DNA from: a virus
Strand: one strand, 5' to 3'
DNA length: 64,000 bases
IMG/VR virus record: IMGVR_UViG_3300005043_000001
Span: 1-64,000 of that record
Positions 46,757 to 61,148 of the stretch are shown one piece after another; the first letter of the stretch is position 1; the number at the start of each line of letters is the position of its first letter. The notes under the pieces are model-generated. The model ran no database searches and was not told the DNA's origin. It was given only the letters and a program-made list of their open reading frames with translations. A program made the position numbers and the translations under genes.

Positions 46757-46758
46757 AT

Positions 46759-47684: not shown

Positions 47685-47717
47685 CTTTTAGCCAATTTAG
47701 CGAATGTATTTACCAAA

Positions 47718-47745
47718 AGTGTAACACAGCCTTGAAAAAGTGCAA
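47718..47745 (-). promoter_or_regulatory. promoter of the late (virion) operon
   Basis: On the minus strand TTGCAC (47745-47740) and TACACT (47723-47718) are 16 bases apart, ending about 34 bases before the ATG at 47684. It faces away from the early promoters across the control region. Confidence 0.55.
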
Positions 47746-48303
47746 AATTGGGTTATATACCACTTTCTTGGTGGCGAAGCGGATGGGGTGTTTTAGGTGT
47801 TAGTATAGTAGTATTTAGAAGGGGGGTGCTGGTGCCCTGGGGGTGGGATTGTTTGATTGAATTTGCGTATATAAGTACTACAGTATTAATGATTGGTGTT
47901 ATTTTTTAAAAATTATTTTTGTATATACGAATTCGTGTATGTAAGTACTATAGGGGGGTTCCCGTGACTAAACGTGACTGGGTAGTCATATCTAGTCTTG
48001 TACGAAATATAGTTTTTGTGAAGTGAAACCCCCCAGATCCCCCCTACCCCCTTCCGTAAAATCGCGTTTGGCCCTTGAGTGACCGTACACCCCTATCAAT
48101 CCATCATCTGTATGTATCTATCATTCTCTCAACCTCCTCAATGTGTGATTACATTATGGCTTAGTACTACACTATTGTCAATCATTCATTTAGTATCAAT
48201 CCTCTTTATGTATGTGTATGTCTATCCCCCGTCTCAGTACACACATAGTACTACAGTAGCATTCAGCACGTCAATGATTCATTTCATTTATTACTATACA
48301 TAC
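47746..48303. other. divergent control region, no gene seen
   Basis: About 560 bases separate the late and early operons. I see G-runs (about 47819-47848 and 47955-47960) and a C-rich stretch (48029-48051). There are two similar AT-rich segments with TATATAAGTACT or TATGTAAGTACT (near 47869 and 47938) and a small palindrome ACGAATTCGT between them. A 92-codon frame on the plus strand here is rich in rare low-complexity sequence and lacks a ribosome site. The region may hold an origin or a packaging start, which is unproven. Confidence 0.5.
48029..48051 (-). other. G-tract cluster, possible G-quadruplex
   Basis: The minus strand carries runs of five, six and six Gs separated by two and four bases. 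The long runs could each supply two tetrad edges. It lies in the divergent control region. Confidence 0.4.
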
Positions 48304-48328
48304 TCTGTACATACCTATACTGTACAGA
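48304..48328. promoter_or_regulatory. operator-like inverted repeat TCTGTACA-N9-TGTACAGA
   Basis: Two perfect 8-base half-sites lie 9 bases apart, 26 bases before the start of the first early gene at 48354. The half-site TGTACAG recurs at 48555 and 48579. This is the layout expected for a dimeric repressor or activator. The regulator is not identified. Confidence 0.6.
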
Positions 48329-48353
48329 CTCTTTACACAAGGGGGTGGATACA

Positions 48354-48554
48354 ATGAAGCGACTGCATATCAAGTTATTGGTACACATGGGTACAATACA
48401 CGACGCGGATACAATAGAGCGCGTGTACAAGGGAAGCCGGGTAGATAAGCACATAGTCAGTGTAGATCTATCACTGGACGACGTGGCACACTTTGAGCAG
48501 ACTATACATGACACCGGTATATTAAAGATTACAGGGGGGATTGAATACGAGTAG
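48354..48554 (+). CDS. hypothetical protein, first early gene
   Basis: The 66-residue protein has the strong ribosome site AGGGGGTGG before ATG 48354; a GTG three codons earlier is less likely. It contains HIVSVDLSLDDVAHFEQTIH, a compact alternating helix and strand pattern. Its position between TGTACA sites suggests it is expressed alone and possibly autoregulated. Confidence 0.65.
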   Translation: MKRLHIKLLVHMGTIHDADTIERVYKGSRVDKHIVSVDLSLDDVAHFEQTIHDTGILKITGGIEYE

Positions 48555-48600
48555 TGTACAGGGTCTGTATATAATCACTGTACAGGGGGTGTATATAAGG
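48555..48600. repeat. two direct repeats TGTACAGGG-(N3)-TGTATATAA
   Basis: Copies at 48555-48574 and 48579-48598 are 24 bases apart and match at nearly all positions. They combine the TGTACA half-site with a TATATAA box. They lie directly after the gene at 48354 and may be paired operator-promoter sites. Confidence 0.65.
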
Positions 48601-49117
48601 GGGTGCTACATAGAGACCCCTTTTCCTCTAAAGTTAGGTAGTACAGGGGTATATAGAGCGTGAGGTAACGCTTTGTACTACAGGGGGCCAATTTCTACAG
48701 CTAATTGTATCCATACCATGTGCATAAAGCATACAGAGTATTGATGTAACCACCTTTTTATAGCGTATTTCGCGTTTTTTGTCACGTTGCATCGTTTTTT
48801 CCATTTTCCATTTCCCCCTACACGTATAAAAAATAAAAAGCTTGTATATATTTTCTTTTTGGCGACCTAAATAAAAGTACTACACTATTACATTTACACA
48901 ACTTTACTATATCTCAAAAACACAAAAAACAGGACAATAGAACATAAACTAAGATATAACCTATAAAAATAGGGCTTTAGTTGAAATAAACAACATTTCA
49001 AACGTGACATAGTACTTTCACACTTATATGCGTAAAACGCTCAATACCCTGGTATACCAAGCTAATATGTGTATAATCAACATTACTAAGTTAGAACAAC
49101 CCCCGAAACCTTTATTA
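48601..49117. other. AT-rich regulatory stretch without clear genes
   Basis: A promoter candidate has TTGGCG 48859-48864, 16 bases, and TACACT 48881-48886. An inverted repeat TTGAAAT-N7-ATTTCAA lies at 48981-49001 and is operator-like. A 65-codon frame starting at 49028 overlaps the next gene and is not supported by a ribosome site. Confidence 0.45.
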
Positions 49118-49144
49118 TATAAAGAGTATGTACACAATGATATT
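49118..49144 (+). repeat. direct repeat copy A (partner at 49488-49515)
   Basis: TATAAAGAG, two variable bases, TGTACACAAT and then ATATT occur here and again at 49488-49515. Copy B supplies the -35 box (TTGTAC) of the promoter at 49498. Copy A overlaps the first possible start of the next gene. Both contain a TGTACA site and may bind the same regulator. Confidence 0.6.
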
Positions 49145-49484
49145 GGACAACCTCACACGCCAAACAATAGAATCACACATAAAAGCGAAACTAAGACATT
49201 ATGTAGGGGTGCAAAAGAACGATAACGCGAAACGTGGGTTTATGGGTACCAGGGGCGTTAGTATGCAAACGAGTGCCAAGCATGGCATCCTATACAGTGT
49301 AATAGTGACGTGCAAAGGTGAAAGTTCAATGAGAGCATGTCAGAAAGGGCTAGGTGCATATAAGAAAGTGAACGAAGCAATATTTGCATGGAACTACGCG
49401 CAAACTTTGCTTTTCGGTACCAAGGCAGAAGTACAACCCTTTATAGCAGGCGAACCAAGGCCAAAACGAAGAAAGCGAAATTAA
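49137..49484 (+). CDS. hypothetical basic protein
   Basis: The 115-residue protein could start at ATG 49128 or 49137. I prefer 49137 because the GAG before 49128 is too close to serve it. It includes VSMQTSAKHGILYSVIVTCK and ends in a basic tail (PKRRKRN). It lies between two copies of a direct repeat. No family is recognised. Confidence 0.6.
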   Translation: MILDNLTRQTIESHIKAKLRHYVGVQKNDNAKRGFMGTRGVSMQTSAKHGILYSVIVTCKGESSMRACQKGLGAYKKVNEAIFAWNYAQTLLFGTKAEVQPFIAGEPRPKRRKRN

Positions 49485-49487
49485 TTG

Positions 49488-49573
49488 TATAAAGAGCTTG
49501 TACACAATTCATATTACTGTATTATTAAACACATACCAACAAGCAACCAACGCAACACGCGGAGCAAATCAAA
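49488..49573 (+). promoter_or_regulatory. early promoter-leader cassette 1
   Basis: Direct repeat copy B (49488-49515) provides TTGTAC (49498-49503), followed after 16 bases by TATTAT (49520-49525). The leader ends ACGCAACACGCGGAGCAAA before the ATG at 49574. The GGAG in it is the Shine-Dalgarno site. Six more cassettes with the same leader end occur downstream. Confidence 0.75.
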
Positions 49574-49840
49574 ATGACAAACACACAAGCAAACATTGTT
49601 ACAAACGCACAACAAGAACTACGAGACAGCGATGCAACACGAGGACTAGACGTCAATCAGTTAGGCGCATTAGATAAGTGCGTTAAAGCGCTCATCATGC
49701 AAGAGCGTTGCACACTAACTTTCGGAGCGTACAAGAACGATTACAAGGTTAGCGAGATAAATATAGAAGAGCAACGCATAGTACTTAGAGATAGACGCGG
49801 AGGTACGCGACTAACCGATTTTTCAGAATTAGACGGTTAA
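49574..49840 (+). CDS. hypothetical protein
   Basis: The 88-residue protein is expressed from cassette 1. It has an N-terminal helix with LDVNQLGALDKCVKALIMQ and a strand-rich second half (VSEINIEEQRIVLRDRRGG). No family is recognised. A hairpin follows at 49852-49875. Confidence 0.7.
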   Translation: MTNTQANIVTNAQQELRDSDATRGLDVNQLGALDKCVKALIMQERCTLTFGAYKNDYKVSEINIEEQRIVLRDRRGGTRLTDFSELDG

Positions 49841-49851
49841 CAATTACATAC

Positions 49852-49875
49852 AAGGGGTGTATACAACACCCCCTT
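49852..49875 (+). terminator. G/C-rich hairpin after the gene at 49574
   Basis: AAGGGGTG pairs with CACCCC-TT (one bulged C) around TATACAA. No T-run follows, so termination would be weak. The GGGGTGTAT sequence echoes the repeats at 48579-48598. Confidence 0.45.
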
Positions 49876-49903
49876 AGCTTCGCCACCCAATAGGATACAG
49901 ACC

Positions 49904-50008
49904 ATGTACAGATTATTTTTAGTTATACCGTTAATTTTTGTTGTGGTTTACATCTTACCATTGGTTGACGTGGCTACTACACTCACAAACGCGCTCAACG
50001 GGGTTTAA
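49904..50008 (+). CDS. 34-residue membrane peptide
   Basis: After AGGAT upstream, the frame encodes one hydrophobic span (LFLVIPLIFVVVYILPLV) and a short polar end. It stops one base before the GTG of the next small frame (TAAGTG). The tight packing supports it. Confidence 0.55.
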   Translation: MYRLFLVIPLIFVVVYILPLVDVATTLTNALNGV

Positions 50009-50092
50009 GTGTTTGATACGGGTTGGACGTTGGTTTTAATATTCGGGGGCGTACTGTTCGTTGACGCCATTGCAAACGCAATACTATATTAA
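50009..50092 (+). CDS. 27-residue membrane peptide, GTG start
   Basis: The GTG directly follows the TAA of the gene before. The product is a single hydrophobic span with WTLVLIFGGVLFVDAIANAI. It ends 10 bases before the next ATG. Its reality rests on gapless packing. Confidence 0.45.
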   Translation: MFDTGWTLVLIFGGVLFVDAIANAILY

Positions 50093-50102
50093 GGGTTATA
50101 TC

Positions 50103-50327
50103 ATGGCTAAGTATACAAAATTAAAGATTGTAGCAAACGAAGGATTAGATAACGAAGTAACACTTATACAACGAACGCAGAACACTTTTTGTGTGTTCTA
50201 TGGGGACGTTGAGTTTCCACATAGTCACGTTGTAGAACGGGGCGATTATGCGCGGGCTATGCGAGAGTTTAGCGAGTGTGTTGCACATAGCGCCAATTGT
50301 ATGGGTAACAACATTAAATTGAATTAG
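50103..50327 (+). CDS. hypothetical protein
   Basis: In this 74-residue protein AAGGG precedes ATG 50103. An earlier in-frame start lies inside the membrane peptide frame and is unlikely. The sequence has strands (YTKLKIVANEGLDNEVTLIQ) and a C-terminal helix with two cysteines. No family is recognised. Confidence 0.65.
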   Translation: MAKYTKLKIVANEGLDNEVTLIQRTQNTFCVFYGDVEFPHSHVVERGDYARAMREFSECVAHSANCMGNNIKLN

Positions 50328-50330
50328 CGC

Positions 50331-50408
50331 TTGCGTGTATCTTAGTACTGTATTATATTTAACGCACTGAAACAAAACACACCAACGCATAGCGCGGAGC
50401 AAATTATT
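50331..50408 (+). promoter_or_regulatory. early promoter-leader cassette 2
   Basis: TTGCGT (50331-50336), 17 bases, TATATT (50354-50359), then CACTGAAACAAA and ACGCATAGCGCGGAGCAAA before the ATG at 50409. Both leader blocks are shared with cassettes 3, 4, 5 and 7. Confidence 0.75.
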
Positions 50409-50687
50409 ATGCCTAGACCTATCCTTGTTAAAGTTGTATCAATCGAAATCGCAAACACTCCTGTAGAACATGCATCATATCTTTATGAGTACAGCCGCAA
50501 CGCTACCAAGGTAGCAGGCACAAAAGAAGTAAAAATGAGCTATGCAATGTTTGTCCGTTATGTTGAAAACTTCTACATGGGTAATGACAACGCTAAACAC
50601 TTATCTTATTACCGCGAAGTGTTATCAAGTATTAACGAACATTACTCTGATATTGAAGGCGCTATACTTATTTTTCAATTCCGTTAA
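50409..50687 (+). CDS. hypothetical protein
   Basis: The 92-residue protein is expressed from cassette 2. It starts PILVKVVSIEIANTPVEHAS with mixed helices after it. It is the only gene before the next cassette, so it is probably transcribed singly or by read-through. The function is unknown. Confidence 0.68.
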   Translation: MPRPILVKVVSIEIANTPVEHASYLYEYSRNATKVAGTKEVKMSYAMFVRYVENFYMGNDNAKHLSYYREVLSSINEHYSDIEGAILIFQFR

Positions 50688-50694
50688 AATAAGC

Positions 50695-50765
50695 TTTACA
50701 GGGGGTTATTAGTCCTATACTATTAACCCACTGAAACGAACAACGCAAAGCGCGGAGCAAACCAA
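50695..50765 (+). promoter_or_regulatory. early promoter-leader cassette 3
   Basis: TTTACA (50695-50700), 17 bases, TACTAT (50718-50723), then CACTGAAACGAA and ACGCAAAGCGCGGAGCAAA before the ATG at 50766. Confidence 0.78.
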
Positions 50766-50894
50766 ATGATTAAACGTGACACTCGCAAAGATACATTGTT
50801 AATCAAAGTTGTTGATACATTCCGCGACGGTGAGTTGTTAAGTTCTACAGTTACATTTTTTGGCCTATTCACATTCAACAATAAGCGAGCTTAA
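50766..50894 (+). CDS. 42-residue hypothetical protein
   Basis: The small frame directly follows cassette 3 with its GGAG site, which supports it strongly despite its size. The sequence is basic at the start (MIKRDTRKDTLLIKVV) and ends with a hydrophobic VTFFGLFTF stretch. Confidence 0.65.
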   Translation: MIKRDTRKDTLLIKVVDTFRDGELLSSTVTFFGLFTFNNKRA

Positions 50895-50897
50895 GCC

Positions 50898-51059
50898 ATG
50901 CATACTGAATACACAACCAACCTAGTACTACAGCAGCAAGCACCTATAAAGGCCGCGTTCGTTAACCCTAACAAAGTACACAAGACCAACACACAAAAGC
51001 GCCTAGACGCCATTCTAGCCAGCGACACCACTAACCCTAACACATGGATGATAAAATAA
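50898..51059 (+). CDS. 53-residue hypothetical protein
   Basis: The ATG at 50898 lies four bases after the previous stop, and the next gene begins one base after its stop. It is rich in Asn, Thr and Lys (FVNPNKVHKTNTQKRLDAIL). No family is recognised. Confidence 0.55.
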   Translation: MHTEYTTNLVLQQQAPIKAAFVNPNKVHKTNTQKRLDAILASDTTNPNTWMIK

Positions 51060-51060
51060 C

Positions 51061-51306
51061 ATGGCCACTACTACACAAGAAAAGTTTGCACGCTCTCAAC
51101 GTAAACGCGATAGCTTTTTTGATGCATACCTTAACGGAAACAAGATGACAGCCCATGCCATTGTTAGTGCAATGACCAAATACGAAATTTATCAATTGTG
51201 TATGGATACATCAAACCGATTCGAAACCAACATAGAGACCGGCACAAGTTTTGAGCATGCACGTTGTCACACATTCATACAAAACGTTTTAACGGGTGAT
51301 TCATGA
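51061..51306 (+). CDS. hypothetical protein
   Basis: The 81-residue protein is mostly helical, polar and basic at the start (EKFARSQRKRDSFFDAYLNG). It overlaps the next gene by four bases. The function is unknown. Confidence 0.65.
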   Translation: MATTTQEKFARSQRKRDSFFDAYLNGNKMTAHAIVSAMTKYEIYQLCMDTSNRFETNIETGTSFEHARCHTFIQNVLTGDS

Positions 51307-51725
51307 GATACGTTAGCAGTGCAAGCCTATCAATCCACCATACCACCACCCGACAAGTCAAAGGCGTTCGTGTGTGCGTCAAATATACCCTACAAGAGAC
51401 GTTTAACAAGATCGCTCACCATATGCTTATGCAAGGCAAGCGAAGCATGGACTATACAGGAACCGTCTGTAAGTATCGTGGGGATATGGGGCTAAAATGT
51501 GCAATTGGTACACTAGACCCTTTCAGCCTGCTAGTGGAAACCGATAGCGTTTGTGACGAATATAATTTAGAGATCCTTGCACGCCTTGGTTACCCTGTTA
51601 ACGCTAAAGCACAAGAAGTATATGAACGACTACAGTATGTGCATGATGAAGTAATGCCGCAAGATTGGAAAGCAACGCTTAAGGCACTAGCATTTATTTG
51701 GCACCTGGAATTTATAAACCGATGA
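51303..51725 (+). CDS. conserved-type phage protein with cysteine motif
   Basis: The 140-residue protein has a central pattern, FNKIAHHMLMQGKRSM followed by CKYRGDMGLKCAIGTL, that I recall from other phage and bacterial small proteins (a C-x-Y-R...C-A-I-G element), but I cannot name its family. It overlaps both neighbours. Confidence 0.68.
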   Translation: MRYVSSASLSIHHTTTRQVKGVRVCVKYTLQETFNKIAHHMLMQGKRSMDYTGTVCKYRGDMGLKCAIGTLDPFSLLVETDSVCDEYNLEILARLGYPVNAKAQEVYERLQYVHDEVMPQDWKATLKALAFIWHLEFINR

Positions 51726-52798
51726 AACGTAGCTACGTAGAAAAGATAACCATAGTACTATCTGGTCAATACTCAAATAGTATAAAAATTGATGCCTTGC
51801 ATGAGTTAATTACATTCGTGGCCAATGAAAAAGAATCACACGCCCAGATTAAACGAGGCATAACCGCTTTAATTAAACAAATCATTATAGCATTAACCCC
51901 ACCCCCCATATTTGAAGGACGTGAAAACGTGAGTAATACAGTAGATACGCTAAACGAAATACTTAAGCAACGTACACTATCAGCCAATGAGAAAATTGAC
52001 CAATTAAGCAAAGTAGCGACCCACATTGAAACCAACGCCAATATAGACAATGACTATTCGCGAAACACTCATAGAATCGCAAAAACTGATTTAATAACCC
52101 ACATTAAAATGCTGTTAAAAGGTAATGTACCTACAGCAACACCTCAAGGACACAAAAACGTGAGTACTACAGTAACCGCACTAAACGAGATATTAACAAG
52201 CGTAGCCAACACAAAAGAAAAGTTAGTTGCGTTGACTCAACTAAAAGCAAAGGTAGACAGTAATAAAAAAGCAGCTACAGAAATAAGAGAGGACAGCTCT
52301 ATATTAGTACAGCAAGTATTTCAACTGCTAACAACGTTTCATGCTTTTAACATGGCTAACATCCCAACACCAAAGACACCAACAACGCGAACTACTGTAG
52401 CGCCCTTGGACTTAAGCAAAGCAGCATTCGAAGCACATTTCACAGAGCAAAAATTGATTGTAGGGGATGTTATAGAGTTAACCAGTGTTTGCAGTGCAAT
52501 TACTGACATACCTAAACACTTCTTACTAAATGGGCCTAAAGGTGATTGGTCTATGGGTCGTGGTACTGTTAAGTTTACGGGGGAGTTAATCCACCTTATA
52601 GGGGATTATGTTGTTATTGATATATCAGATAGCCTATTGGCAGGCTATCGCGTTACATGTATGAAAGTAAATGACAAAACGCGAAAGGTAGAATTCTTTC
52701 AAAGTAAAGACAGCGAGCCTTATATAAAGGACGTGTATTTAAAAGGAAGTATGAAAGTTGAAAAGAAAACCGAAATAGTATTGACGCCCCTAACCTAG
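51722..52798 (+). CDS. hypothetical protein with three helical repeats
   Basis: The 358-residue protein starts at ATG 51722 in an ATGA overlap; a TTG eight codons earlier is less likely. The first 210 residues hold three diverged repeats of about 65 residues, each with a L-N-E-I-L/EK-L-x-x-L core (TVDTLNEILKQRTLSANEKI, TVTALNEILTSVANTKEKL). The C-terminal 140 residues form a different, strand-rich domain with a short ELTSVCSAITDIPKHFLLNG segment. The gene at 52854 is a single-unit relative of the repeats. Confidence 0.7.
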   Translation: MKRSYVEKITIVLSGQYSNSIKIDALHELITFVANEKESHAQIKRGITALIKQIIIALTPPPIFEGRENVSNTVDTLNEILKQRTLSANEKIDQLSKVATHIETNANIDNDYSRNTHRIAKTDLITHIKMLLKGNVPTATPQGHKNVSTTVTALNEILTSVANTKEKLVALTQLKAKVDSNKKAATEIREDSSILVQQVFQLLTTFHAFNMANIPTPKTPTTRTTVAPLDLSKAAFEAHFTEQKLIVGDVIELTSVCSAITDIPKHFLLNGPKGDWSMGRGTVKFTGELIHLIGDYVVIDISDSLLAGYRVTCMKVNDKTRKVEFFQSKDSEPYIKDVYLKGSMKVEKKTEIVLTPLT

Positions 52799-52853
52799 TA
52801 CTATACTATTAACGGACTGAAACAAATAACCAACGCATAGCGGAGCAAACCAC
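52781..52853 (+). promoter_or_regulatory. early promoter-leader cassette 4
   Basis: TTGACG (52781-52786), 17 bases, TACTAT (52804-52809), then GGACTGAAACAAA and ACGCATAGCGGAGCAAA before the ATG at 52854. The -35 box lies inside the end of the previous gene. Confidence 0.8.
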
Positions 52854-53048
52854 ATGGCTAGTATCATTAAGCAAATAAATCTTATCAAATTCTCAACTAT
52901 GGAGGCAGGCGAAAAAATCGTTAGCCTTCACAATGTTTTAAACACAATTAATATCGAGAAAATGGGTACTGATAACGCGGCTAAATTTGAAAGTTTATGT
53001 GGTATCGCTTCACTCGCTAAAAAATGTATTCGGGAGCTGTCACAATGA
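52854..53048 (+). CDS. small helical protein related to the repeats at 51722
   Basis: The 64-residue protein has the pattern TMEAGEKIVSLHNVLNTINI followed by a helix ending CIREL, matching one repeat unit of the protein at 51722. It starts after cassette 4 and overlaps the next gene by four bases. Confidence 0.68.
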   Translation: MASIIKQINLIKFSTMEAGEKIVSLHNVLNTINIEKMGTDNAAKFESLCGIASLAKKCIRELSQ

Positions 53049-53440
53049 GCCAACGTAGAGAGATTTTGGTTCCTATGAAAAAGCCCACTAAAAAGTTTAA
53101 GGCTAACTATAAGCAACAATTGGACGATGGTATATTTGAGAAAATCGGTGACTTGCATTATAAAAAAGTATTTGGAAAGGTAGCCATTTTTAATATTGAT
53201 GCGCCGAAAGTTGTTAAGTTCTTTTTACAAGAAAATGATAATGAAGAGGTGTTTCTGCTACACTTCGCAAGTGGTGCAAAGATTTGCAGCCTAACACCAA
53301 CAAAGCTTAAGTATTGCCGTTCGTATGTGTCCATGAAAGACCGCACAGCCGCGAAGCTTGCAATATTCGATATAATCAACAGGGTAGGACTTGAAAAGGT
53401 GCTACAACAATTTGACAGCTTACCAGTGGTGAACACATGA
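53045..53440 (+). CDS. hypothetical protein
   Basis: The 131-residue protein starts at ATG 53045 in an ATGA overlap. It has a basic N-terminus and a segment VFLLHFASGAKICSLTPTKL. No family is recognised. Confidence 0.65.
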   Translation: MSQRREILVPMKKPTKKFKANYKQQLDDGIFEKIGDLHYKKVFGKVAIFNIDAPKVVKFFLQENDNEEVFLLHFASGAKICSLTPTKLKYCRSYVSMKDRTAAKLAIFDIINRVGLEKVLQQFDSLPVVNT

Positions 53441-53565
53441 CCGAAGAGGAGATAAAAACCGCACAGGATTGGTATGTAAACAAAGGTTATGACCTTATTA
53501 CCATAGCGCAACATTTTGATGTATCAGTATGGTTTCTAAAATCCAAAATTAGAAAAGGTGTTTGA
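53437..53565 (+). CDS. 42-residue helix-turn-helix-like protein
   Basis: The gene starts in an ATGA overlap. The short sequence YDLITIAQHFDVSVWFLKSK fits a helix-turn-helix of the kind found in small DNA-binding proteins (IAxxFxVSxxxLxxKI). Being so short, it would act as a minimal binding domain or dimer. Confidence 0.58.
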   Translation: MTEEEIKTAQDWYVNKGYDLITIAQHFDVSVWFLKSKIRKGV

Positions 53566-53567
53566 AT

Positions 53568-53687
53568 ATGAACGTCGAACTAATTGCACAAATGTTTTTT
53601 GTTCTAGCAATAGCGCCCGGTTTAGTTGGCGGGTTAATTCACATAGCAATTAAAGTTAAGGCAGGCCAATGCTTAAGAAGTTTCTAA
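53568..53687 (+). CDS. 39-residue membrane protein
   Basis: A single hydrophobic span (IAQMFFVLAIAPGLVGGLIH) is followed by a short basic tail. It overlaps the next gene by 19 bases. Its start lies two bases after the previous stop. Confidence 0.5.
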   Translation: MNVELIAQMFFVLAIAPGLVGGLIHIAIKVKAGQCLRSF

Positions 53688-53935
53688 GTATATTTAAAAT
53701 AAAGCACGTTGAAAAGTGGGCGCAAGTATTAACAGATTTATTCTATTGCGTTTATGTCATTGCGTTTGTTCGAATAGGAATGAATGCTATTGACTACTTT
53801 AGTACCACTGGACACGAACACCCCTTCTTATTTATCATTGGCGTACTGTTCACACTAACAGTTACAGCGGTGGGTTCTAAGCTTTTAGAATTAGGTTCTG
53901 TTTTCACAATTAGAAAGATCATAAAAGTAGTATAG
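53669..53935 (+). CDS. two-span membrane protein
   Basis: The 88-residue protein has two hydrophobic spans (about 20-40 and 50-75) after a basic N-terminus (MLKKFLSIFKIKHVEKW). It lies last in the unit before a strong hairpin. No family is assigned. Confidence 0.62.
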   Translation: MLKKFLSIFKIKHVEKWAQVLTDLFYCVYVIAFVRIGMNAIDYFSTTGHEHPFLFIIGVLFTLTVTAVGSKLLELGSVFTIRKIIKVV

Positions 53936-53947
53936 TATCTACTTGCA

Positions 53948-53978
53948 ATAGGGGAATAGTAGTGTATTATTCCCCTAT
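53948..53978 (+). terminator. perfect 11-bp hairpin after the unit
   Basis: ATAGGGGAATA pairs perfectly with TATTCCCCTAT around a 9-base loop. It ends the unit started by cassette 4. There is no T-run, so termination efficiency is uncertain. The 70 bases up to cassette 5 hold nothing else clear. Confidence 0.55.
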
Positions 53979-54054
53979 CACTCTGATAAAGGGAGGCGAG
54001 GAGGTGCCTGCTATTTGAGCAACTAAATTAATTCAATTCTTTTTATCAATTCGC

Positions 54055-54134
54055 TTGTGTTAGTCCTATAGTCTGTTAATATTACCACATCGAAACAAAA
54101 CAACGTACCAACGCATAGCGGAGCAAAAAATACC
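54055..54134 (+). promoter_or_regulatory. early promoter-leader cassette 5
   Basis: TTGTGT (54055-54060), 16 bases, TAATAT (54077-54082), then TCGAAACAAA and ACGCATAGCGGAGCAAA before the ATG at 54135. It drives the ArdC gene. Confidence 0.75.
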
Positions 54135-55055
54135 ATGGCTAAGAAATCATTTGTTAAAAAAGATGTTTACCAAGAAGTTACCAACAAGATCATTGCGAAA
54201 CTCGAAGCTGGAACCGTTCCATGGGTTAAAGAGTGGGACAACCAAGGCAACAATCTTTCAAAACCCCTACCTTACAATTTCGACTCCGGCAACATGTACA
54301 GTGGAATGAATATTTTATCATTGTGGATGAGTGAGGAAGAGAACCAATTTACTTCCAATGCCTGGATGACATTCGCACAAGCCAAGAAGAAAGGCGGCAA
54401 CATAATCAAAGGGCAAAAGGGAACGTCTCTATTCTTTTTTAAGTTTGTCGAGAAGGTTTGCGCGGACACTGGGACAGATAAGTCCTACGCAATGCCTAAG
54501 CCCTTCACAGTGTTTAACCTAGACCAGATTGAAGGTATCGAGTTGCCAACGTGTGAGGAGCAACCACAGCCCCATAATGGGCCAATTAATACTGGCGTGT
54601 TACTCTCTTACATGATCGATCAAGGCATTAAGCTAACAGACGGCAAAAACACTGCTTACTACTCCCCAACTGTTGACCGCATAGGAATGCCACCCCGCGA
54701 ACAGTTCCACAGCGAGAGCGCCTATTTTGGGACTCTGGCGCATGAATGCATACACTCGACTGGACACAAGAAGCGTCTAGACCGATTCAGCAACATAACC
54801 GACATACTTGACACCGTACCAAGCCCTAAGAAAGAATATGCATTTGAGGAATTGATTGCAGAACTAGGCGCGGCTTTCCTTTGTGCTGAAACCGGAATAC
54901 AAAAAGACAATGAACAGACAGCCGCATATATTGGCCACTGGTTAAAGTGTCTTAAGTCCGATAAGAAGTTTATTGCACAAGCCGCAAGCCGTGCATCAAA
55001 GGCGACTAAGTATATAAACGAAGCCGCAGAAATTAAACTAGAAAAGGCCGCATAA
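54135..55055 (+). CDS. ardC: ArdC-type antirestriction protein
   Basis: The 306-residue protein has an N-terminal ArdC single-stranded-DNA-binding domain (YQEVTNKIIAKLEAGTVPWV, KGGNIIKGQKGTSLFFFKF, about 10-130). A C-terminal zincin-like domain has HECIH near 201-205 and the further Glu in EELIAELGAA near 237. ArdC proteins protect incoming DNA from host restriction. As a gene behind a strong early promoter it fits a role just after injection. All visible catalytic residues are present. Confidence 0.9.
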   Translation: MAKKSFVKKDVYQEVTNKIIAKLEAGTVPWVKEWDNQGNNLSKPLPYNFDSGNMYSGMNILSLWMSEEENQFTSNAWMTFAQAKKKGGNIIKGQKGTSLFFFKFVEKVCADTGTDKSYAMPKPFTVFNLDQIEGIELPTCEEQPQPHNGPINTGVLLSYMIDQGIKLTDGKNTAYYSPTVDRIGMPPREQFHSESAYFGTLAHECIHSTGHKKRLDRFSNITDILDTVPSPKKEYAFEELIAELGAAFLCAETGIQKDNEQTAAYIGHWLKCLKSDKKFIAQAASRASKATKYINEAAEIKLEKAA

Positions 55056-55300
55056 TGGCAAACCAGAACCAAGCAGCAAAGGAAAGATACAAGGCGCAGT
55101 TTGTCGCCTTGTACGGGGGAGGGTTTGAAATTATGACCCGCCAGCAAAAACACCACGAATGGGAGAGCGCAATGAACATGCGACGGTCGTTAGGTGTAAA
55201 AACGTGGGTTAGCCCCTACAAGCCAATTAGAGCTAAACCGAATCATAACAAGTTTGGGCCTAGCACTCTTCCACTCTCTCGCCTCCCATTATCAAGGTGA
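55055..55300 (+). CDS. hypothetical protein downstream of ArdC
   Basis: The 81-residue protein is linked to ArdC by a TAATG overlap. It is basic and has few hydrophobic stretches (RQQKHHEWESAMNMRRSLG). It may be co-expressed for the same defence role, but nothing in the sequence proves it. Confidence 0.62.
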   Translation: MANQNQAAKERYKAQFVALYGGGFEIMTRQQKHHEWESAMNMRRSLGVKTWVSPYKPIRAKPNHNKFGPSTLPLSRLPLSR

Positions 55301-55343
55301 TAGGGTTAATATACTGTAGTACTTTTAATAGGTCAAGTACAAA

Positions 55344-55547
55344 ATGGATATGATTGTATTGTTTGTTTCAGGGAATGAAGGTATTGGTAGCGACTATGCA
55401 ATCATTCCGTCAAATAAATTTGAGTTACAAGACGCAGCTAAAAAACTACGCGCTGATATGAGCGTTCGAAAATTCGAGCAGGTAAATTATTTTAATCTGC
55501 CTGGGCGTGTATCTGAAATTAAATATAGTAAATGGTTAACGTTATGA
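55344..55547 (+). CDS. hypothetical protein
   Basis: The 67-residue protein follows a 43-base gap with TATACT (55310-55315) and GTAGTACT, a probable promoter. Its sequence has a strand, helix and strand pattern (IVLFVSGNEGIGSDYAII). It overlaps the next gene by four bases. Confidence 0.62.
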   Translation: MDMIVLFVSGNEGIGSDYAIIPSNKFELQDAAKKLRADMSVRKFEQVNYFNLPGRVSEIKYSKWLTL

Positions 55548-55756
55548 GTGGCCCTTTAAAGTTTATTAGTATTAGGGTAATAGGAAAGCGAAGGGGCGTA
55601 GATCTTGTAGTGTTTCCAAATATAGGCAGCTCTATAAAATTGCATGGTGTCCTTAATAGCGGTGATAGCTTTCGCCCTGAAACAATAGCGGATTGTGACG
55701 CCTTAATTGAACAGATAACCCGGATAAAAGAGGAGCTAAAGAAATGCGAAAATTAA
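55544..55756 (+). CDS. hypothetical protein
   Basis: The 70-residue protein starts at ATG 55544 in an ATGA overlap; a GTT-side start four codons earlier is less likely. It is strand-rich at first, with a C-terminal helix (LIEQITRIKEELKKC). The function is unknown. Confidence 0.6.
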   Translation: MSGPLKFISIRVIGKRRGVDLVVFPNIGSSIKLHGVLNSGDSFRPETIADCDALIEQITRIKEELKKCEN

Positions 55757-56049
55757 GAGCGGCAGGAATGCCACTACATGGGCGTAGTAGTGTAAGCCAA
55801 ATGCTAGTATCTATTCGTGATGGCGAAGTTAGCGAGATAACCGCAAAGGCTTGGATTAAAAACAGTATTACTTATAGGGCAAAGTCCATGCCCGCACGTA
55901 TGGCCAAACGTACTGCTATTATTGTAGGTTGTGCCACTACGTTAGACGATGGCTTTGTATTGGACTTGATTTGCCTCGTACTAGATCAGATGGAAAGCGC
56001 GGAAGTAAAAACCCTGAATCGTAAAAAAGTTAAGGAGGTGTTGAAATGA
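55744..56049 (+). CDS. hypothetical protein
   Basis: The 101-residue protein has GAGGAG upstream in the previous gene. It is helical and basic, with SSVSQMLVSIRDGEVSEITA at the start. The sequence has some likeness to small helix-turn-helix folds but no clear match. Confidence 0.62.
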   Translation: MRKLRAAGMPLHGRSSVSQMLVSIRDGEVSEITAKAWIKNSITYRAKSMPARMAKRTAIIVGCATTLDDGFVLDLICLVLDQMESAEVKTLNRKKVKEVLK

Positions 56050-56345
56050 GCATAAAAAGCCGAAATGCAGTGATAACCAAGATACTATATGAGTGTCAAT
56101 TTAACGTAGGCAAGGCAAAATTTGTAAATGTACAGCGTTGCAGGTCTCCCTTCCAATTCTTTGCAACTGCTAAGTATGGCAGAGAAGGGCAAAAATTAGA
56201 TAAGCCTCGTGTTATGCTTTTCACTGTAGAGATAACCAATATAGTCGGAAGGTCTAACGATATTGTAAAAAGTGTATTGGTATTCGAACGACACGAAAAG
56301 GTAAACTTTGATAATGACGACAACACGAACAGCGCTAATACTTAA
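56046..56345 (+). CDS. hypothetical protein
   Basis: The 99-residue protein overlaps its upstream neighbour by four bases. It is strand-rich (KPRVMLFTVEITNIVGRSND) and ends with an Asp/Asn/Thr tail that overlaps the next gene. No family is recognised. Confidence 0.58.
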   Translation: MSIKSRNAVITKILYECQFNVGKAKFVNVQRCRSPFQFFATAKYGREGQKLDKPRVMLFTVEITNIVGRSNDIVKSVLVFERHEKVNFDNDDNTNSANT

Positions 56346-56505
56346 CCTAGAAGCCATTATAAAACTATACGAGTTTCCGCCAGGGGGAAGTGGTTCTGTT
56401 ACTATTAGTTTACACACCATGCAAGAGATAATCGAGGTTTTGAAATTCGATGAGCATAATCAGCAAAGAACTACGAAAGAAGAAACAAAAAAGCCTTGTA
56501 CGTAG
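56314..56505 (+). CDS. hypothetical protein
   Basis: The 63-residue protein starts at ATG 56314 inside the end of the previous gene; TTG 56308 is an alternative. It is helical with a YEFPPGGSGSVTISL loop. It overlaps the next gene by 56 bases, so the frames compete, and its status is moderate. Confidence 0.5.
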   Translation: MTTTRTALILNLEAIIKLYEFPPGGSGSVTISLHTMQEIIEVLKFDEHNQQRTTKEETKKPCT

Positions 56506-56647
56506 ATGTAGAAGGCTAAAATCCAGAGTCTTGATACTTGAGGATGTTGTGAAAAATCAAAAAATTACAATCGCCAGGTTAGAAGAGGAAGCGCTACAAA
56601 TAGAGTATGATAGTATTGATGACTTCAACGCTAGAACTGTGTTTTGA
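56450..56647 (+). CDS. small basic coiled-coil protein
   Basis: The 65-residue protein has a very basic first half (KELRKKKQKSLVRRCRRLKS) followed by a leucine-rich coiled coil. The gene at 56644 has the same type. GAGG lies upstream. Confidence 0.55.
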   Translation: MSIISKELRKKKQKSLVRRCRRLKSRVLILEDVVKNQKITIARLEEEALQIEYDSIDDFNARTVF

Positions 56648-56823
56648 AAGCCAAAAAGCGCACCCCAATGGTAAAGCTTAAGGCTAAACTAAAACGCCGT
56701 GAACGTAGGATAAGCGACCTTAAATACAGAATATCCAGAGTAAAGGTAGTACTAGAAAAAGCTGAAAGGAGGGCGCAAGACTGGCAAAATGAACATGATA
56801 TAAAAATGGGTTATTGGCGATGA
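56644..56823 (+). CDS. small basic coiled-coil protein, TTG start
   Basis: A TTGA overlap with the previous stop starts a 59-residue frame rich in Lys and Arg (KLKAKLKRRERRISDLKYRI). It ends in an ATGA overlap with the next gene, which supports it. Its resemblance to the gene before suggests duplication or a shared role. Confidence 0.5.
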   Translation: MKAKKRTPMVKLKAKLKRRERRISDLKYRISRVKVVLEKAERRAQDWQNEHDIKMGYWR

Positions 56824-57125
56824 GTAAAAAAGAGAAGATAAAACAACGCCGTTCACAAATGCTAGTACACTCTTATATCTATTATCAATTGAATCAGAGT
56901 GTGGTTACAGATGACACTTGGCAACGATGGGCCAATGAACTAGTCAAGTTGCAAAAGTCTAGACGTGGGCCGGTTAAGATCAATTGGTATGACGAAGCGT
57001 TTGCAGACTGGGACGGCTCAACGGGTTGTCACTTGCCTAAGGACTTTTGGGTTCATTCAATTGCAACAAGACTATTGACACAACTTGCACCACCTAAACT
57101 TAAACGACGGAGACGGAAAAAATGA
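56820..57125 (+). CDS. hypothetical protein
   Basis: The 101-residue protein starts at ATG 56820 in an ATGA overlap; a TTG two codons earlier is possible. It is basic, with a DTWQRWANELVKLQ helix and a basic tail (PKLKRRRRKK). No family is recognised. Confidence 0.62.
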   Translation: MSKKEKIKQRRSQMLVHSYIYYQLNQSVVTDDTWQRWANELVKLQKSRRGPVKINWYDEAFADWDGSTGCHLPKDFWVHSIATRLLTQLAPPKLKRRRRKK

Positions 57126-57388
57126 ATATTGAACCAATAATGATATTGTTAGCAAAGTCTTATATAGTAATTGCGGTTTTGCTTTTCGTAGGGTTCCATT
57201 GTAAGAACTTAAGAAAATCAAAAAGAAGTTACATTGCACAGCAGATTAAGCGCGGAAATACAAAGGCAGTAAACCAAGTACTCGCACGACCATCAACATT
57301 TTATGTCGCGTATACCTTTTTTGCATTAACTGTATCAATGATATGGCTATTTCGTGCAAACTTAGTAAATCAGTTATTGAAATTTTAA
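57122..57388 (+). CDS. two-span membrane protein
   Basis: The 88-residue protein has hydrophobic spans near 7-25 and 60-80, separated by a basic loop (KNLRKSKRSYIAQQIKRG). The same layout is seen in the protein at 53669. It starts in an ATGA overlap and ends inside the next promoter. Confidence 0.62.
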   Translation: MNIEPIMILLAKSYIVIAVLLFVGFHCKNLRKSKRSYIAQQIKRGNTKAVNQVLARPSTFYVAYTFFALTVSMIWLFRANLVNQLLKF

Positions 57389-57443
57389 TTAATAGTAGTA
57401 TAGTAGTTACAACTTCAACGCAAACAGCGGAGCAAAAAATATT
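57377..57443 (+). promoter_or_regulatory. early promoter-leader cassette 6
   Basis: TTGAAA (57377-57382), 16 bases, TATAGT (57399-57404), then a short leader with CAACGCAAACAGCGGAGCAAA-type end before the ATG at 57444. This copy lacks the CTGAAACAAA block. Confidence 0.75.
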
Positions 57444-57884
57444 ATGTCAGGTATCAGACAGTTAGTTAATATCACTTTCACAGCAAAGACCGGATTATCC
57501 CATACTGAGTACACAAGCGGAACCACTGCACAAATTCTGTATTACTGTGAAAATATAAATCAATCCTTTGCATCCACTTCTGAATATGAAGTTATTGGAA
57601 CCGACCATGAGGACTACAACAAAATAACACAAGCCGAAGTTTGCATATTGGATAGTGAGCCCCCAAAGCATGACATTCCAGATGAACAGTCACGAGTACA
57701 GTTAACGCACCTTAGTGGGCGCACAAGTAGTATAGTAATACCAAACCTAGAAAGGTCTAAGTATCTAACGGTTTCGGGTTCTATGCCACACCATTCACAG
57801 TTTTTGCCTAAGTCTAATAAAGACTGTCAAACACTTATTGATTTTCTAGAACATGTTAAAAATACTTTGCCAGTAGGTGTCTAA
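57444..57884 (+). CDS. hypothetical protein
   Basis: The 146-residue protein is the first gene after cassette 6. It contains strands (LVNITFTAKTGLSHTEYTSG) and a C-terminal helix. No family is recognised. It overlaps the next start by one base. Confidence 0.66.
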   Translation: MSGIRQLVNITFTAKTGLSHTEYTSGTTAQILYYCENINQSFASTSEYEVIGTDHEDYNKITQAEVCILDSEPPKHDIPDEQSRVQLTHLSGRTSSIVIPNLERSKYLTVSGSMPHHSQFLPKSNKDCQTLIDFLEHVKNTLPVGV

Positions 57885-58141
57885 TGAGCGGTAGAAGAAA
57901 GAATCCACATGTTAGCGGTAGAAGTATGCTACATGCAAAATCTGGTTTAATGCTTCACGAGGTATGGAAGGTTAAGGCGGACGGTAGCTTAGGTAACCAC
58001 CCACAGTTCTACGTTTTGTTCTGTAGTGATCAAGGCCACGACCACAGCGGCTTAAACGTCGGAGACCTGTACAGCAGAGGCACCGGCACAACGGCAACAG
58101 TTAATAATAATTTTGTAGAGGTGAAAGGAAATGTTCGGTAA
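57884..58141 (+). CDS. hypothetical protein
   Basis: The 85-residue protein starts in a TAATG overlap. It includes QFYVLFCSDQGHDHSGLNVG with several histidines that could bind a metal. The function is unknown. Confidence 0.6.
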   Translation: MSGRRKNPHVSGRSMLHAKSGLMLHEVWKVKADGSLGNHPQFYVLFCSDQGHDHSGLNVGDLYSRGTGTTATVNNNFVEVKGNVR

Positions 58142-58511
58142 GGATAAAAGCCATATACCCGCAGCAAGAGACAGCTATGGGAGAATGATACAGAATAATT
58201 TTAGGGGTCACCCCAAGGCAAAGATAGGTCATCCCGACGTTTACCGAATCATGCCGTCAAAAGATGGGGGCTTTCGTATGATGATGAATGAGCAAGTCCC
58301 AAGCCGAATGGGTGTACAAGCAGAAACAGAATGCAAAGTTATCTGGTTTACTGGGGATGAGTTCGCGCATTTAGTAGAACACGCTAAGCCCTATATGGAG
58401 GTACACGCGGCTAAACGCAAGAAAGCCGACGCCATACTAGCCAAAGCCATGGAACACGTCTCCCCTGAAGATCTGGAGCTTCTAAAAGAACTTGGACATA
58501 ACATCTCATGA
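58131..58511 (+). CDS. hypothetical protein
   Basis: The 126-residue protein is basic at the start with a C-terminal helical region (LAKAMEHVSPEDLELLKELG). AAAGGAAA precedes its ATG inside the previous gene. No family is recognised. Confidence 0.63.
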   Translation: MFGKDKSHIPAARDSYGRMIQNNFRGHPKAKIGHPDVYRIMPSKDGGFRMMMNEQVPSRMGVQAETECKVIWFTGDEFAHLVEHAKPYMEVHAAKRKKADAILAKAMEHVSPEDLELLKELGHNIS

Positions 58512-58843
58512 AACAAAATATAAAAAATTTCTTAGCCTTAAAAGTAGATGACTTAAATTTTCGTGATATGCTTGGCGTATTAAAATTAGATCAAGGTATT
58601 ACGTTAAAAATAGTAAATGGCTGTGTGTGGCTAAATGGATGTACAGAGGATGTACAGTTAAGACCTAATGAGGTTATGGTTCTTTGGCACGTAACCAACC
58701 ATATTAAGTGGTCGAAGGATGAGAGCGACCGAAAAGCACAGATACTAAAAAGCCTGATAGATGACATCGAAGCATGGGACGAAGAAGAGCAGGAACTTTT
58801 AGAACAACATTACAAAGAAAAGTATTGTAATACTAAGTTATAG
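58508..58843 (+). CDS. hypothetical acidic protein
   Basis: The 111-residue protein starts in an ATGA overlap. It ends in an acidic helix (DDIEAWDEEEQELLEQHYKE). The -35 box of cassette 7 overlaps its end. Confidence 0.62.
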   Translation: MKQNIKNFLALKVDDLNFRDMLGVLKLDQGITLKIVNGCVWLNGCTEDVQLRPNEVMVLWHVTNHIKWSKDESDRKAQILKSLIDDIEAWDEEEQELLEQHYKEKYCNTKL

Positions 58844-58906
58844 TGTTATAGTAACCCCACTGAAACGAAACACACATTGTACCAACGCAACGCGGAGCAA
58901 ATCAAC
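58825..58906 (+). promoter_or_regulatory. early promoter-leader cassette 7
   Basis: TTGTAA (58825-58830), 16 bases, TATAGT (58847-58852), then CACTGAAACGAAA and an ACGCAACGCGGAGCAAA end before the ATG at 58907. Confidence 0.78.
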
Positions 58907-59584
58907 ATGAACACATTTGTAAAAGTACTACTAACAAACGAATCTCTAGAATTAGGAACCAAAGGGGCTTGGTTACAGAACAATCGCACCATTGAGATAT
59001 TCCTACAGCGTCAAGGTTGCGCCCGTTCATTTTATTGCTATCACCCTGAATTTGCAATTGAGCTAATGACATGGCAAGGCACCGACCAATTTTGTTTGAA
59101 GATGGGAAAGGTCTTTAATACTTATTATTCATTTGCTGAAGCCGTGAAAGACATTCCCGAAATACTAAAGCGCCAGGGCATTAAACGTACTGTAGTAATT
59201 AACTCCCAAATTATGGATTATATGTATGGTATGGATATGTACCCGTATCAAAACGACGACCGTATAATCTCCCCTTTCTTTTACTGTGAATACAGCGACA
59301 CAATCCGCACCGTTAAAGAGAACTATTGTTTACTTAGTTTCGGAAATGGAAAGTTTGATAAGCGTAACTATATTGTTGATTATGCAGAAGGAGCCGCACG
59401 CCATTTAGGCAACTTTGAAAAAGCGATCAGTACGGGCTTCCATGCTTGTGACATGAAGAAGGGGCAAAGCTACTGCAAGCGACGTTTGGCATGGTTAGCG
59501 GGTGAATACGCCATATCAGAATTTGAGGGCAACATACACTTAGCCTTTGTTAATAAAGACATGACCAGGATAAAAAGACCATGA
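58907..59584 (+). CDS. hypothetical protein
   Basis: The 225-residue protein starts at ATG 58907 right after cassette 7; an in-frame start upstream lies within the leader. It is one of the larger unknown early proteins, with tyrosine- and cysteine-rich stretches (MDYMYGMDMYPYQNDDRIIS, HACDMKKGQSYCKRRLAW). No catalytic pattern or family is recognised. Confidence 0.68.
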   Translation: MNTFVKVLLTNESLELGTKGAWLQNNRTIEIFLQRQGCARSFYCYHPEFAIELMTWQGTDQFCLKMGKVFNTYYSFAEAVKDIPEILKRQGIKRTVVINSQIMDYMYGMDMYPYQNDDRIISPFFYCEYSDTIRTVKENYCLLSFGNGKFDKRNYIVDYAEGAARHLGNFEKAISTGFHACDMKKGQSYCKRRLAWLAGEYAISEFEGNIHLAFVNKDMTRIKRP

Positions 59585-59991
59585 ATGACGAAATGAGAAA
59601 TAAAATTAGAAGGGTCGCTGAATTAGAAATAATGGCGGACGTTGACCTGCGAGCAAAGGGCGTGCTAACTAAAGTAAGACGCCCCTTCTATCAGTCTCTA
59701 TCGTCTAATTGGGAAGCAGCGAACGCTAGAAAGGAAGTAGCAAAAACAAAAAGTGACATTCTTCTTGTAATGCGCACCACAGTACAGGACTTAACAGAAG
59801 CGGACGTGAGCGAGTTAACCACCCAAGCGCTAAGAATGAATAGATACTTATTCACAGTCGCCGCCGTATTAGAACAAAACTTAAAAGTAGTAAAGATTCA
59901 GGTTAAACTATTTTACAAGTTCACCCCAAACCAATGGGAACATTATGTCAAAGCCGTTAATACACGATTTTCAAAAACTCTCACCGTCTAA
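59581..59991 (+). CDS. hypothetical protein
   Basis: The 136-residue protein starts in an ATGA overlap. It is largely helical (DLTEADVSELTTQALRMNRY) and overlaps the next gene by 47 bases. Confidence 0.62.
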   Translation: MNDEMRNKIRRVAELEIMADVDLRAKGVLTKVRRPFYQSLSSNWEAANARKEVAKTKSDILLVMRTTVQDLTEADVSELTTQALRMNRYLFTVAAVLEQNLKVVKIQVKLFYKFTPNQWEHYVKAVNTRFSKTLTV

Positions 59992-60286
59992 AGCAAGCAA
60001 CTGGCTATCATGCCCCGGAACATTAGAAATGAAACATTCAAAAAACAAGCCGCCAAAAAAGCCCGTATATTTTTTACTAGTTTTACCAAGGGGAGGAACC
60101 GGGCGGGAGATTTGCGCCTTTAGTTCTAATGCAAAACGCAACGCCTATGCAAATACACGAGGTGATAACGTACTAACAATAGTTGTCGCCCGTAAAGGCA
60201 ACACTAACATTACACGAATGAGTAATGAAGATTTTAACGATTGGCTAGAACTAGCAGAACACTATATCGATGAAAAGTTAGGTTAA
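59945..60286 (+). CDS. small protein with DUF2800-like N-terminal motif
   Basis: In this 113-residue protein the start LSPSKASNWLSCPGTLEM is close to the N-terminal hallmark of DUF2800 nucleases (SPSxAxxWLxCPGS), better preserved here than in the full-length gene at 1499. The nuclease core and the cysteine cluster that follow in real members are absent. It may be a fragment, a decoy or a regulator sharing the first cysteine-containing element. GGGA precedes its ATG. Confidence 0.6.
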   Translation: MSKPLIHDFQKLSPSKASNWLSCPGTLEMKHSKNKPPKKPVYFLLVLPRGGTGREICAFSSNAKRNAYANTRGDNVLTIVVARKGNTNITRMSNEDFNDWLELAEHYIDEKLG

Positions 60287-60302
60287 CCAGGAGACTAGCG
60301 CC

Positions 60303-60638
60303 ATGTTGAAAATGCATATTAGCCAATTTACCCAAGTAGAAGTGACTAGAAACAATGTAAACGAAAAGTCCAAACGCGAAGTGTATCTTACAACGGCGTT
60401 AGGCTTTGAAGGTACCAACATTGAAACGCTAACAGATAAAGTTATTGAGTACTTTAATGTACCTCGTGACATGTTAAGCGTAGACCACTACCCAAACTGC
60501 GGTAAGTATTGGGTCACCTTTAGAACCTATACTAAAGCAAACGCCAACCACGTTAACGAGTGGCCCACTTACTCTAAACGGTTTACTGAGCGCGGTATCA
60601 TGTTGCACAGAAACTTATTTATAGTAGTAGCAAGCTAA
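60303..60638 (+). CDS. hypothetical protein
   Basis: The 111-residue protein has CAGGAG upstream. It starts with strands (MLKMHISQFTQVEVTRN) and has a central helix and a strand-rich end. No family is recognised. Confidence 0.64.
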   Translation: MLKMHISQFTQVEVTRNNVNEKSKREVYLTTALGFEGTNIETLTDKVIEYFNVPRDMLSVDHYPNCGKYWVTFRTYTKANANHVNEWPTYSKRFTERGIMLHRNLFIVVAS

Positions 60639-60889
60639 TGACTTGGTATAGGAAGAAAAGTCCTTACACCGTTTGGGTTCGTGTGTTTCAACCCAAGGCG
60701 GGGGGCGGGGAGTACATAGGGGGCATTTGGCGAGTACCACGAAAGATGGCTAGATCTGGAACTCTCTATGTTATCCACCATTACGAATTGCATCAAGTGT
60801 TTAAGGATGCGGACGGAATTTATATAAGGTTGATAAAACGTGAAACGAAGGAAGAACTTTGGAAGTATAAAGAACGCCCACGTAATTGA
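60638..60889 (+). CDS. hypothetical protein
   Basis: The 83-residue protein starts in a TAATG overlap. It is basic and strand-rich (YTVWVRVFQPKAGGGEYIGG). The function is unknown. Confidence 0.6.
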   Translation: MTWYRKKSPYTVWVRVFQPKAGGGEYIGGIWRVPRKMARSGTLYVIHHYELHQVFKDADGIYIRLIKRETKEELWKYKERPRN

Positions 60890-61148
60890 GCATTTGCTAA
60901 ATGATTACAAGGGTAAAATTGATTTACTGACTTGGCTCATTGACCATGGCAGCCCGAGATACCAATTGATAACAGTTGGTATAGTACTAAAAACAATCCG
61001 CCGTAAAATTAGTAAAGAGGTATTAGGTTATGCAGACCCATTGGAACAAACGAGGAGTCACGTTGTTCGAAGTGCTAGTAGTCATCTTCACATTGTTAAT
61101 AATAACGATAGTAGGCCATTGCGCAAACGAGGGAAGCCTAAGCAATGA
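60840..61148 (+). CDS. hypothetical protein, GTG start, overlaps both neighbours
   Basis: The 102-residue frame starts at GTG 60840 within the previous gene and runs 119 bases into the pilin-like gene. Its centre (AHVIEHLLNDYKGKIDLLTW) looks protein-like and fills a 140-base gap otherwise empty. The C-terminal third overlaps the clearly coding pilin frame and may be non-functional tail sequence. Confidence 0.45.
   Translation: MKRRKNFGSIKNAHVIEHLLNDYKGKIDLLTWLIDHGSPRYQLITVGIVLKTIRRKISKEVLGYADPLEQTRSHVVRSASSHLHIVNNNDSRPLRKRGKPKQ

Follow-up and report, generated by a model that had tools for sequence, protein, structure and literature searches.

The question raised by this locus is why seven genes that are unrelated to each other should be preceded by the same promoter-leader cassette. 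They lie at 49.5-58.9 kb, all on the + strand, in a window of 64,000 nucleotides (the whole stretch of phage DNA that was analysed, i.e. positions 1 to 64,000 of IMGVR_UViG_3300005043_000001), where the seven cassettes form the entry of the rightward early region. According to the original prediction, the cassettes probably carry a shared translation or RNA-binding signal that acts as a common switch, and have allowed new gene cassettes to be added as modules. The seven-fold cassette is confirmed as a real feature, well above chance. With a probability of about 0.7, it represents a portable early-expression module, i.e. a putative start unit for the host sigma70 RNA polymerase, copies of which now precede seven accessory genes that are unrelated to each other. 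The module is apparent from the anatomy of the sequence, the unrelatedness of the genes, the equivalent cassettes in related phages, and an extra cassette-gene unit in one of these (phage RSP).

The core of the cassette, GCGGAGCAAA, has seven exact matches in the window, each of them on the + strand (at 49559, 50394, 50752, 52840, 54118, 57427 and 58892), compared to a mean of 0.08 copies per genome, and never more than one, in 60 simulations with the same dinucleotide content. It was thought to stand always directly before the ATG, of which "always" holds (7/7) and "directly" does not, the core ending 4-7 nt upstream of the start codon. An invariant CAACGC is found 3-5 bases 5' of the core, and the complete pattern CAACGC-N2-6-GCGGAGCAAA-N2-8-ATG is present in all seven cassettes, with zero further matches in the host assembly and 34 related genomes. 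Pairwise identity among the copies is 100% for GCGGAG, 76% for the following six positions and ~34-50% (ungapped) for the remaining leader, while from the third codon onward it is 23-37% (background 26%), i.e. the similarity ends at the ATG, within a few codons. The seven downstream proteins are unrelated (none below E 0.4 in blastp among them), and only the fifth, an ArdC-type antirestriction protein, has a recognised function.

Upstream of all seven cores a sigma70-like -35/-10 pair can be aligned, with a spacing of 16-17 nt. In copies 2, 3, 4, 5 and 7 the -10 hexamer is followed by six bases and then by ACTGAAAC or ATCGAAAC; given this fixed distance and the usual sigma70 geometry, the A of the box would be +1 and the box would be transcribed first. 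This start box reads CTGAAAC in four copies and TCGAAAC in one, and is thus looser than the "usually CTGAAACAAA" of the original prediction (CTGAAACAAA in 2/7, CTGAAACGAA in 2/7, TCGAAACAAA in 1/7, and absent before the starts at 49574 and 57444, i.e. in copies 1 and 6). We infer a leader of ~33-48 nt, and a cassette that consists of the promoter, the whole 5' leader and the Shine-Dalgarno (SD) sequence.

Cassette 1 (49498..49573) has TTGTAC at 49498-49503, TATTAT at 49520-49525 and a predicted +1 near 49532; it lacks the GAAAC box, has CAACGC, and places its core (49559-49568) before a gene of 88 aa without assigned function (49574-49840). Cassette 2 (50331..50408), with TTGCGT at 50331, TATATT at 50354-50359 and a predicted +1 at 50366 (ACTGAAACAAA), has its core at 50394-50403 and precedes a gene of 92 aa (50409-50687). 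It is followed by cassette 3 (50695..50765; TTTACA at 50695, TACTAT at 50718-50723, predicted +1 at 50730, ACTGAAACGAA, core 50752-50761) and its gene of 42 aa (50766-50894). For cassette 4 (52781..52853) the elements are TTGACG at 52781, TACTAT at 52804-52809, a predicted +1 at 52816 (ACTGAAACAAA) and a core at 52840-52849, ahead of a 64-aa gene (52854-53048). The ArdC-type gene (54135-55055, 306 aa) is preceded by cassette 5 (54055..54134), with TTGTGT at 54055, TAATAT at 54077-54082, a predicted +1 at 54089 (ATCGAAACAAA) and the core at 54118-54127. Cassette 6 (57377..57443) is the second copy without GAAAC box; its TTGAAA (57377), TATAGT (57399-57404), predicted +1 (near 57411) and core (57427-57436) stand before a gene of 146 aa (57444-57884). 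Cassette 7 (58825..58906), finally, has TTGTAA at 58825, TATAGT at 58847-58852, a predicted +1 at 58859 (ACTGAAACGAA) and a core at 58892-58901, and serves a gene of 225 aa (58907-59584).

Each cassette would thus be a complete start module for the host sigma70 RNA polymerase, with a -35, a -10, a possible operator over the -10, the ACTGAAAC box as a conserved initially transcribed sequence at +1, a 5' leader that is rich in A and C and unstructured, and an SD of moderate strength in a fixed context. Seven accessory genes at the entry to the early region, unrelated to each other, would each have received a copy of the module, new genes arriving with or beside it; joint early firing of the seven units would follow from the common promoter type (and perhaps one operator), and the leader may provide efficient promoter clearance and ribosome loading. 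This gives a testable account of how genes for host takeover are gained, in which a newcomer gene need only land behind a standard start module.

Several observations weigh against such a module. Promoter-like matches across the region are not above chance (38 versus 33.7 ± 5.3 expected), so that the predicted 16-17 spaced promoter at each start is borne out by the alignment but not by a regional excess; what speaks for the promoters is their shared position, not their consensus strength. The GAAAC box is missing from two of the seven copies, and among the 5-mers after promoter-like sites in this phage GAAAC ranks only 7th (7 versus 2.3 expected). The invariant GC before and CAAA after GGAG are explained neither by promoter function nor by pairing with 16S rRNA. 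Lastly, the transcription on which the module depends is a predicted one: the start, the early timing, the operator function and the leader effect are all read from the sequence of this phage.

A neutral by-product, in which the cassettes are alike merely because of recent duplication, seems improbable. Recent copying has occurred in the relatives KPP23 and RSP, whose cassettes show 80-92% identity over 70-90 bp. In the window, in contrast, the spacers and leaders of the different copies have diverged almost to background, in sequence as well as in length, while 16 core bases are invariant, and for core bases unchanged between such divergent flanks simple recent copying is insufficient.

KPP23 and RSP, both phages of Pseudomonas aeruginosa, are the nearest annotated phages by terminase (65-66%), and KPP23 also shares the DNA polymerase, helicase, primase and two further proteins of the replication region (38-62%). 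KPP23 has a cassette of its own, which precedes at least seven accessory genes. In it, TTGAC is followed by a spacer that holds a TGTCCGGACA-type palindrome, then by a -10, by GTCGAAAC or AACGAAAC, and by a leader rich in A and C with an SD; GAAAC is the top 5-mer after -35/-10 pairs in this genome (10 versus 0.6 expected). The putative early promoters of KPP23 and RSP therefore resemble those of the window in their TTGAC, -10, GAAAC at +1, A/C-rich leader, GGAG and accessory genes, next to homologous packaging and replication modules, and differ in the TGTCCGGACA palindrome (absent from the window), the SD context and the genes served. In fact, no homologues of the window's cassette genes were found in KPP23, and the replication genes common to both phages have no cassette in either. 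The scan of related phages that was proposed with the original prediction shows leaders of this kind in the relatives as well, where they precede other genes. KPP23 and RSP are 95-97% identical in the cassette region, yet the interval between two cassette genes common to both holds one ORF (open reading frame) in KPP23 and, in RSP, two small ORFs followed by a full cassette and an 82-aa gene, which means that cassette and gene are gained or lost together. The modular addition of genes is therefore upheld, both by this whole unit and by the unrelatedness of the downstream genes. The announcement of KPP23 makes no mention of promoters or repeats (PMC4031330); its early promoter cassettes, like those of RSP, are recognised as such in the present sequence analysis. 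KPP23 also has two clusters of GTAAAACGAAG direct repeats (9465-9602 and 40862-40909), which resemble replication iterons.

Whether the seven units are switched together at the level of RNA is a separate matter. Folding of the seven leaders gave z-scores of -0.8 to +1.4, no better than shuffles, and no conserved structure, which leaves RNA-level switching unsupported. The common RNA switch of the original prediction also finds no support in the position of GAAAC at the predicted +1 and its recurrence in unrelated phages with other operators, nor in the fact that the regulatory-looking shared element in KPP23, RSP and Pbunavirus R12 is a palindrome in promoter DNA, for which reason joint control in those phages would most simply be transcriptional. 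RNA-level switching is possible; joint control of the seven units more likely operates at the promoter. A specific form of RNA control, in which CAACGC-N-GCGGAGCAAA is an RNA site through which a phage or host protein switches the seven messages jointly (RegA-like or Start-Associated-Sequence-like), is considered unlikely. The core is invariant in 7/7 despite diverging flanks, the conserved stretch is larger than the GGAG that pairs with 16S rRNA, and copies 1, 3 and 6 are predicted to form a weak CGC-loop-GCG hairpin. This hairpin is, however, not predicted in copies 2, 4, 5 and 7, the best fold reaches a z of only -0.8, and compensatory changes are absent from the arms (because the arms never vary). 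The RegA profile PF01818 has no matches in the assembly, nor any in the control genomes, and CAACGCAAA occurs in leaders of Pseudoalteromonas phages without GCGGAGCAAA. GGAG is the sole part of the core that is able to pair with the 16S rRNA tail (anti-SD), and since the GC and CAAA around it lie outside this pairing, some translational role for them is still possible.

Transcriptional control through the start module may involve a shared operator. The best shared palindrome of the window phage is ATAGTANNNTACTAT, the score of which was reached by 0 of 100 spacer shuffles in a statistic that ignores shared descent. Its best example (52795..52809, unstranded) overlaps the -10 of cassette 4; versions with 2 mismatches are found at 49511, 50342, 50709, 54068 and 57392, and the element is also present in the promoter-like site preceding the TerD gene (contig position 65331). 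The strongest promoter-like site of the region (48153..48181, - strand, TTGACA-17-CATAAT) points leftward towards the structural genes and has TAGTACTA in its spacer, which is possibly a shared operator. As a shared operator, ATAGTANNNTACTAT/TAGTACTA may be regarded as a lead, not a result. One candidate for a regulator that binds ATAGTANNNTACTAT is the HTH_3 protein encoded at contig 64410-65330. The genome-wide words TACTGTAGTA/TAGTACTACA were rejected as operators, being mostly within coding sequence and probably reflecting codon preference. Terminator-like sites between the units are not above chance (11 versus 10.8 expected for intrinsic terminators).

By analogy, the closest precedent for the cassette design is the pairing of Extended SAS (ESAS) and Start-Associated Sequence (SAS) in cluster K mycobacteriophages, where the SAS is near-invariant over the ribosome-binding site and preceded by an ESAS with an inverted repeat (PMC3203893, PMC11373665), the ESAS being read as a SigA-like promoter (PMC11373665). 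Of these two elements, the promoter may have a counterpart in the hexamers aligned in 7/7 copies, and the inverted repeat in ATAGTANNNTACTAT, which beats spacer shuffles in a statistic that ignores shared descent. Both systems have a conserved repeat over the SD, a few nt before the ATG, conserved beyond the rRNA pairing, in one orientation, and before non-structural genes of unrelated families. They differ in core (GCGGAGCAAA versus GGGATAGGAGCCC), copy number (7 versus 11-19), the conservation here of the transcribed promoter-to-SD leader, and host and phage lineage. The 13-bp SAS consensus GGGATAGGAGCCC is absent from the seven starts, its one match in the window (≤2 mismatches, at 15048) being at chance level, and the cassette is therefore not a member of the SAS family. 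SAS/ESAS-like sequences have also been described in Microbacterium cluster EF phages, with ten ribosome-binding-site motifs tied to an upstream conserved motif (PMC7302621); the motif (GGGAAAGGACCCC) and the phages are unrelated to those discussed here. Stoperators of the mycobacteriophage L5 type are likewise short and oriented, but are repressor sites without linkage to start codons, unlike the present copies (7/7 linked). For PB1-like phages (Pbunavirus), intergenic motifs of unclear function were reported (PMC3008698). Pbunavirus R12 has several TTTACT...TATAGT...CATCGAAACG leaders, which resemble the window's cassettes and may or may not be those motifs, with a different, operator-like palindrome (TGAGGT...ACCTCA). 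GAAAC is its top 5-mer after -35/-10 pairs (4 versus 0.3 expected), and the R12 stretch searched contains no homologue of the window's early genes.

The GAAAC start box recurs in Pbunavirus, PAK_P3, Vibrio, Klebsiella and Pseudoalteromonas phages. A search with the KPP23 leader matches PAK_P3-like and Pbunavirus phages, and a gene common to KPP23 and PAK_P3 has retained -10, box and leader and lacks the palindrome. From the window, the leader half of copy 2 gives matches in two Vibrio phages (1.016.O, E 1e-3; 1.039.O, E 2e-2), and the start region of copy 7 gives matches in Pseudoalteromonas phages (E 5e-3 to 2e-2), of which H105/1 and BS5 have ACCCCACTGAAACGAAACAACGCAAAC ahead of GGAG. The more distant terminase relatives (L110-L188) have only scattered single GAAAC leaders, and the GCGGAGCAAA cassette itself gave just single scattered matches in IMG/VR and, among the matches listed, in GTDB contigs. 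Scanning IMG/VR for TTGACA-TATAAT-CGAAAC gave at least 87 matches, versus at least 81 for a reversed-box control, totals that are not comparable; among the matches listed, the spacing peaks at 8 (45/87), and an SD plus ORF follows in 52/87 versus 31/81 for the control. Two to three copies of such a leader are found in IMG/VR contigs L218 (e.g. TATAATGCACTCATCGAAACGAACTGGAG), L228, L204, L232, L242 and L271. We tentatively consider, as a possibility with the odds against it, that phage early promoters widely share an initially transcribed element, ACTGAAAC/ATCGAAAC, which has gone unrecognised and would occur in unrelated gammaproteobacterial phages with different operators, travel with accessory genes, and act on RNA polymerase clearance, the nascent leader, or both. 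If functional across unrelated phages, the box would offer a sequence handle by which early genes could be located in phages that lack annotation, as well as a natural variant set for the study of promoter escape and leader effects.

It is very improbable that the start box mimics the host rRNA promoter rrn P1 (first bases ACTGACACGGAACAACGGCAAAC in E. coli). In an alignment with E. coli rrnB P1, one of the seven copies (copy 3) outscores 99.9% of shuffles, and one genome in the host's order has the rRNA operon promoter TATAATGCGCGCCACTGAAACGAAG; that genome is, however, the only one of 194 in the order for which the box was shown before rRNA, and in the host's own genus the rRNA promoters of a complete genome do not have it. 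Mimicry, which fits E. coli and one relative and fails in the host's genus, was therefore rejected.

The window is contained in contig C9, which belongs to a bacterial assembly of 4.15 Mb. As the two ends of this contig (74,374 bp) share 99 identical bases, it is most simply read as a circular phage genome (74,275 bp). Its structural genes run leftward on the - strand from ~48 kb to 12 kb, and its early and replication genes rightward from 49 kb through the coordinate origin to ~11 kb. A terminase match, IMG/VR record IMGVR_UViG_3300029867_000007, is the same phage (identical over 58 kb) without exactly window positions 46853-63118, i.e. the entire cassette region. Between the divergent modules lies ~1 kb of repeat-rich, poorly coding DNA (48000-49130), which contains the leftward promoter-like site mentioned above as well as several TAGTACTAC-type words, and is a candidate for a control region or an origin. 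The first two early genes are preceded by a 28-nt direct repeat (86%), at 49111-49138 (TTTATTATATAAAGAGTATGTACACAAT) and 49481-49508 (TTAATTGTATAAAGAGCTTGTACACAAT). Upstream of the large terminase, two short leftward ORFs (46295-47151) are possibly a decayed duplicate terminase: 46295-46756 weakly matches terminase large-subunit families, and the sole match of 46759-47151 is an internal virion protein family (E 0.01). A tRNA at 291-358 was found by Rfam and missed by ARAGORN, and the structural region has an internal repeat at 31003-31779 (~82% identity over 302 bp, 396-bp offset). Beyond the window, the phage encodes a TerD-domain protein and an adjoining TerC-family membrane protein by Pfam (L009:5434-6021 and L009:6220-7074, i.e. 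contig C9 65434-67074), an uncommon cargo for a phage of this size.

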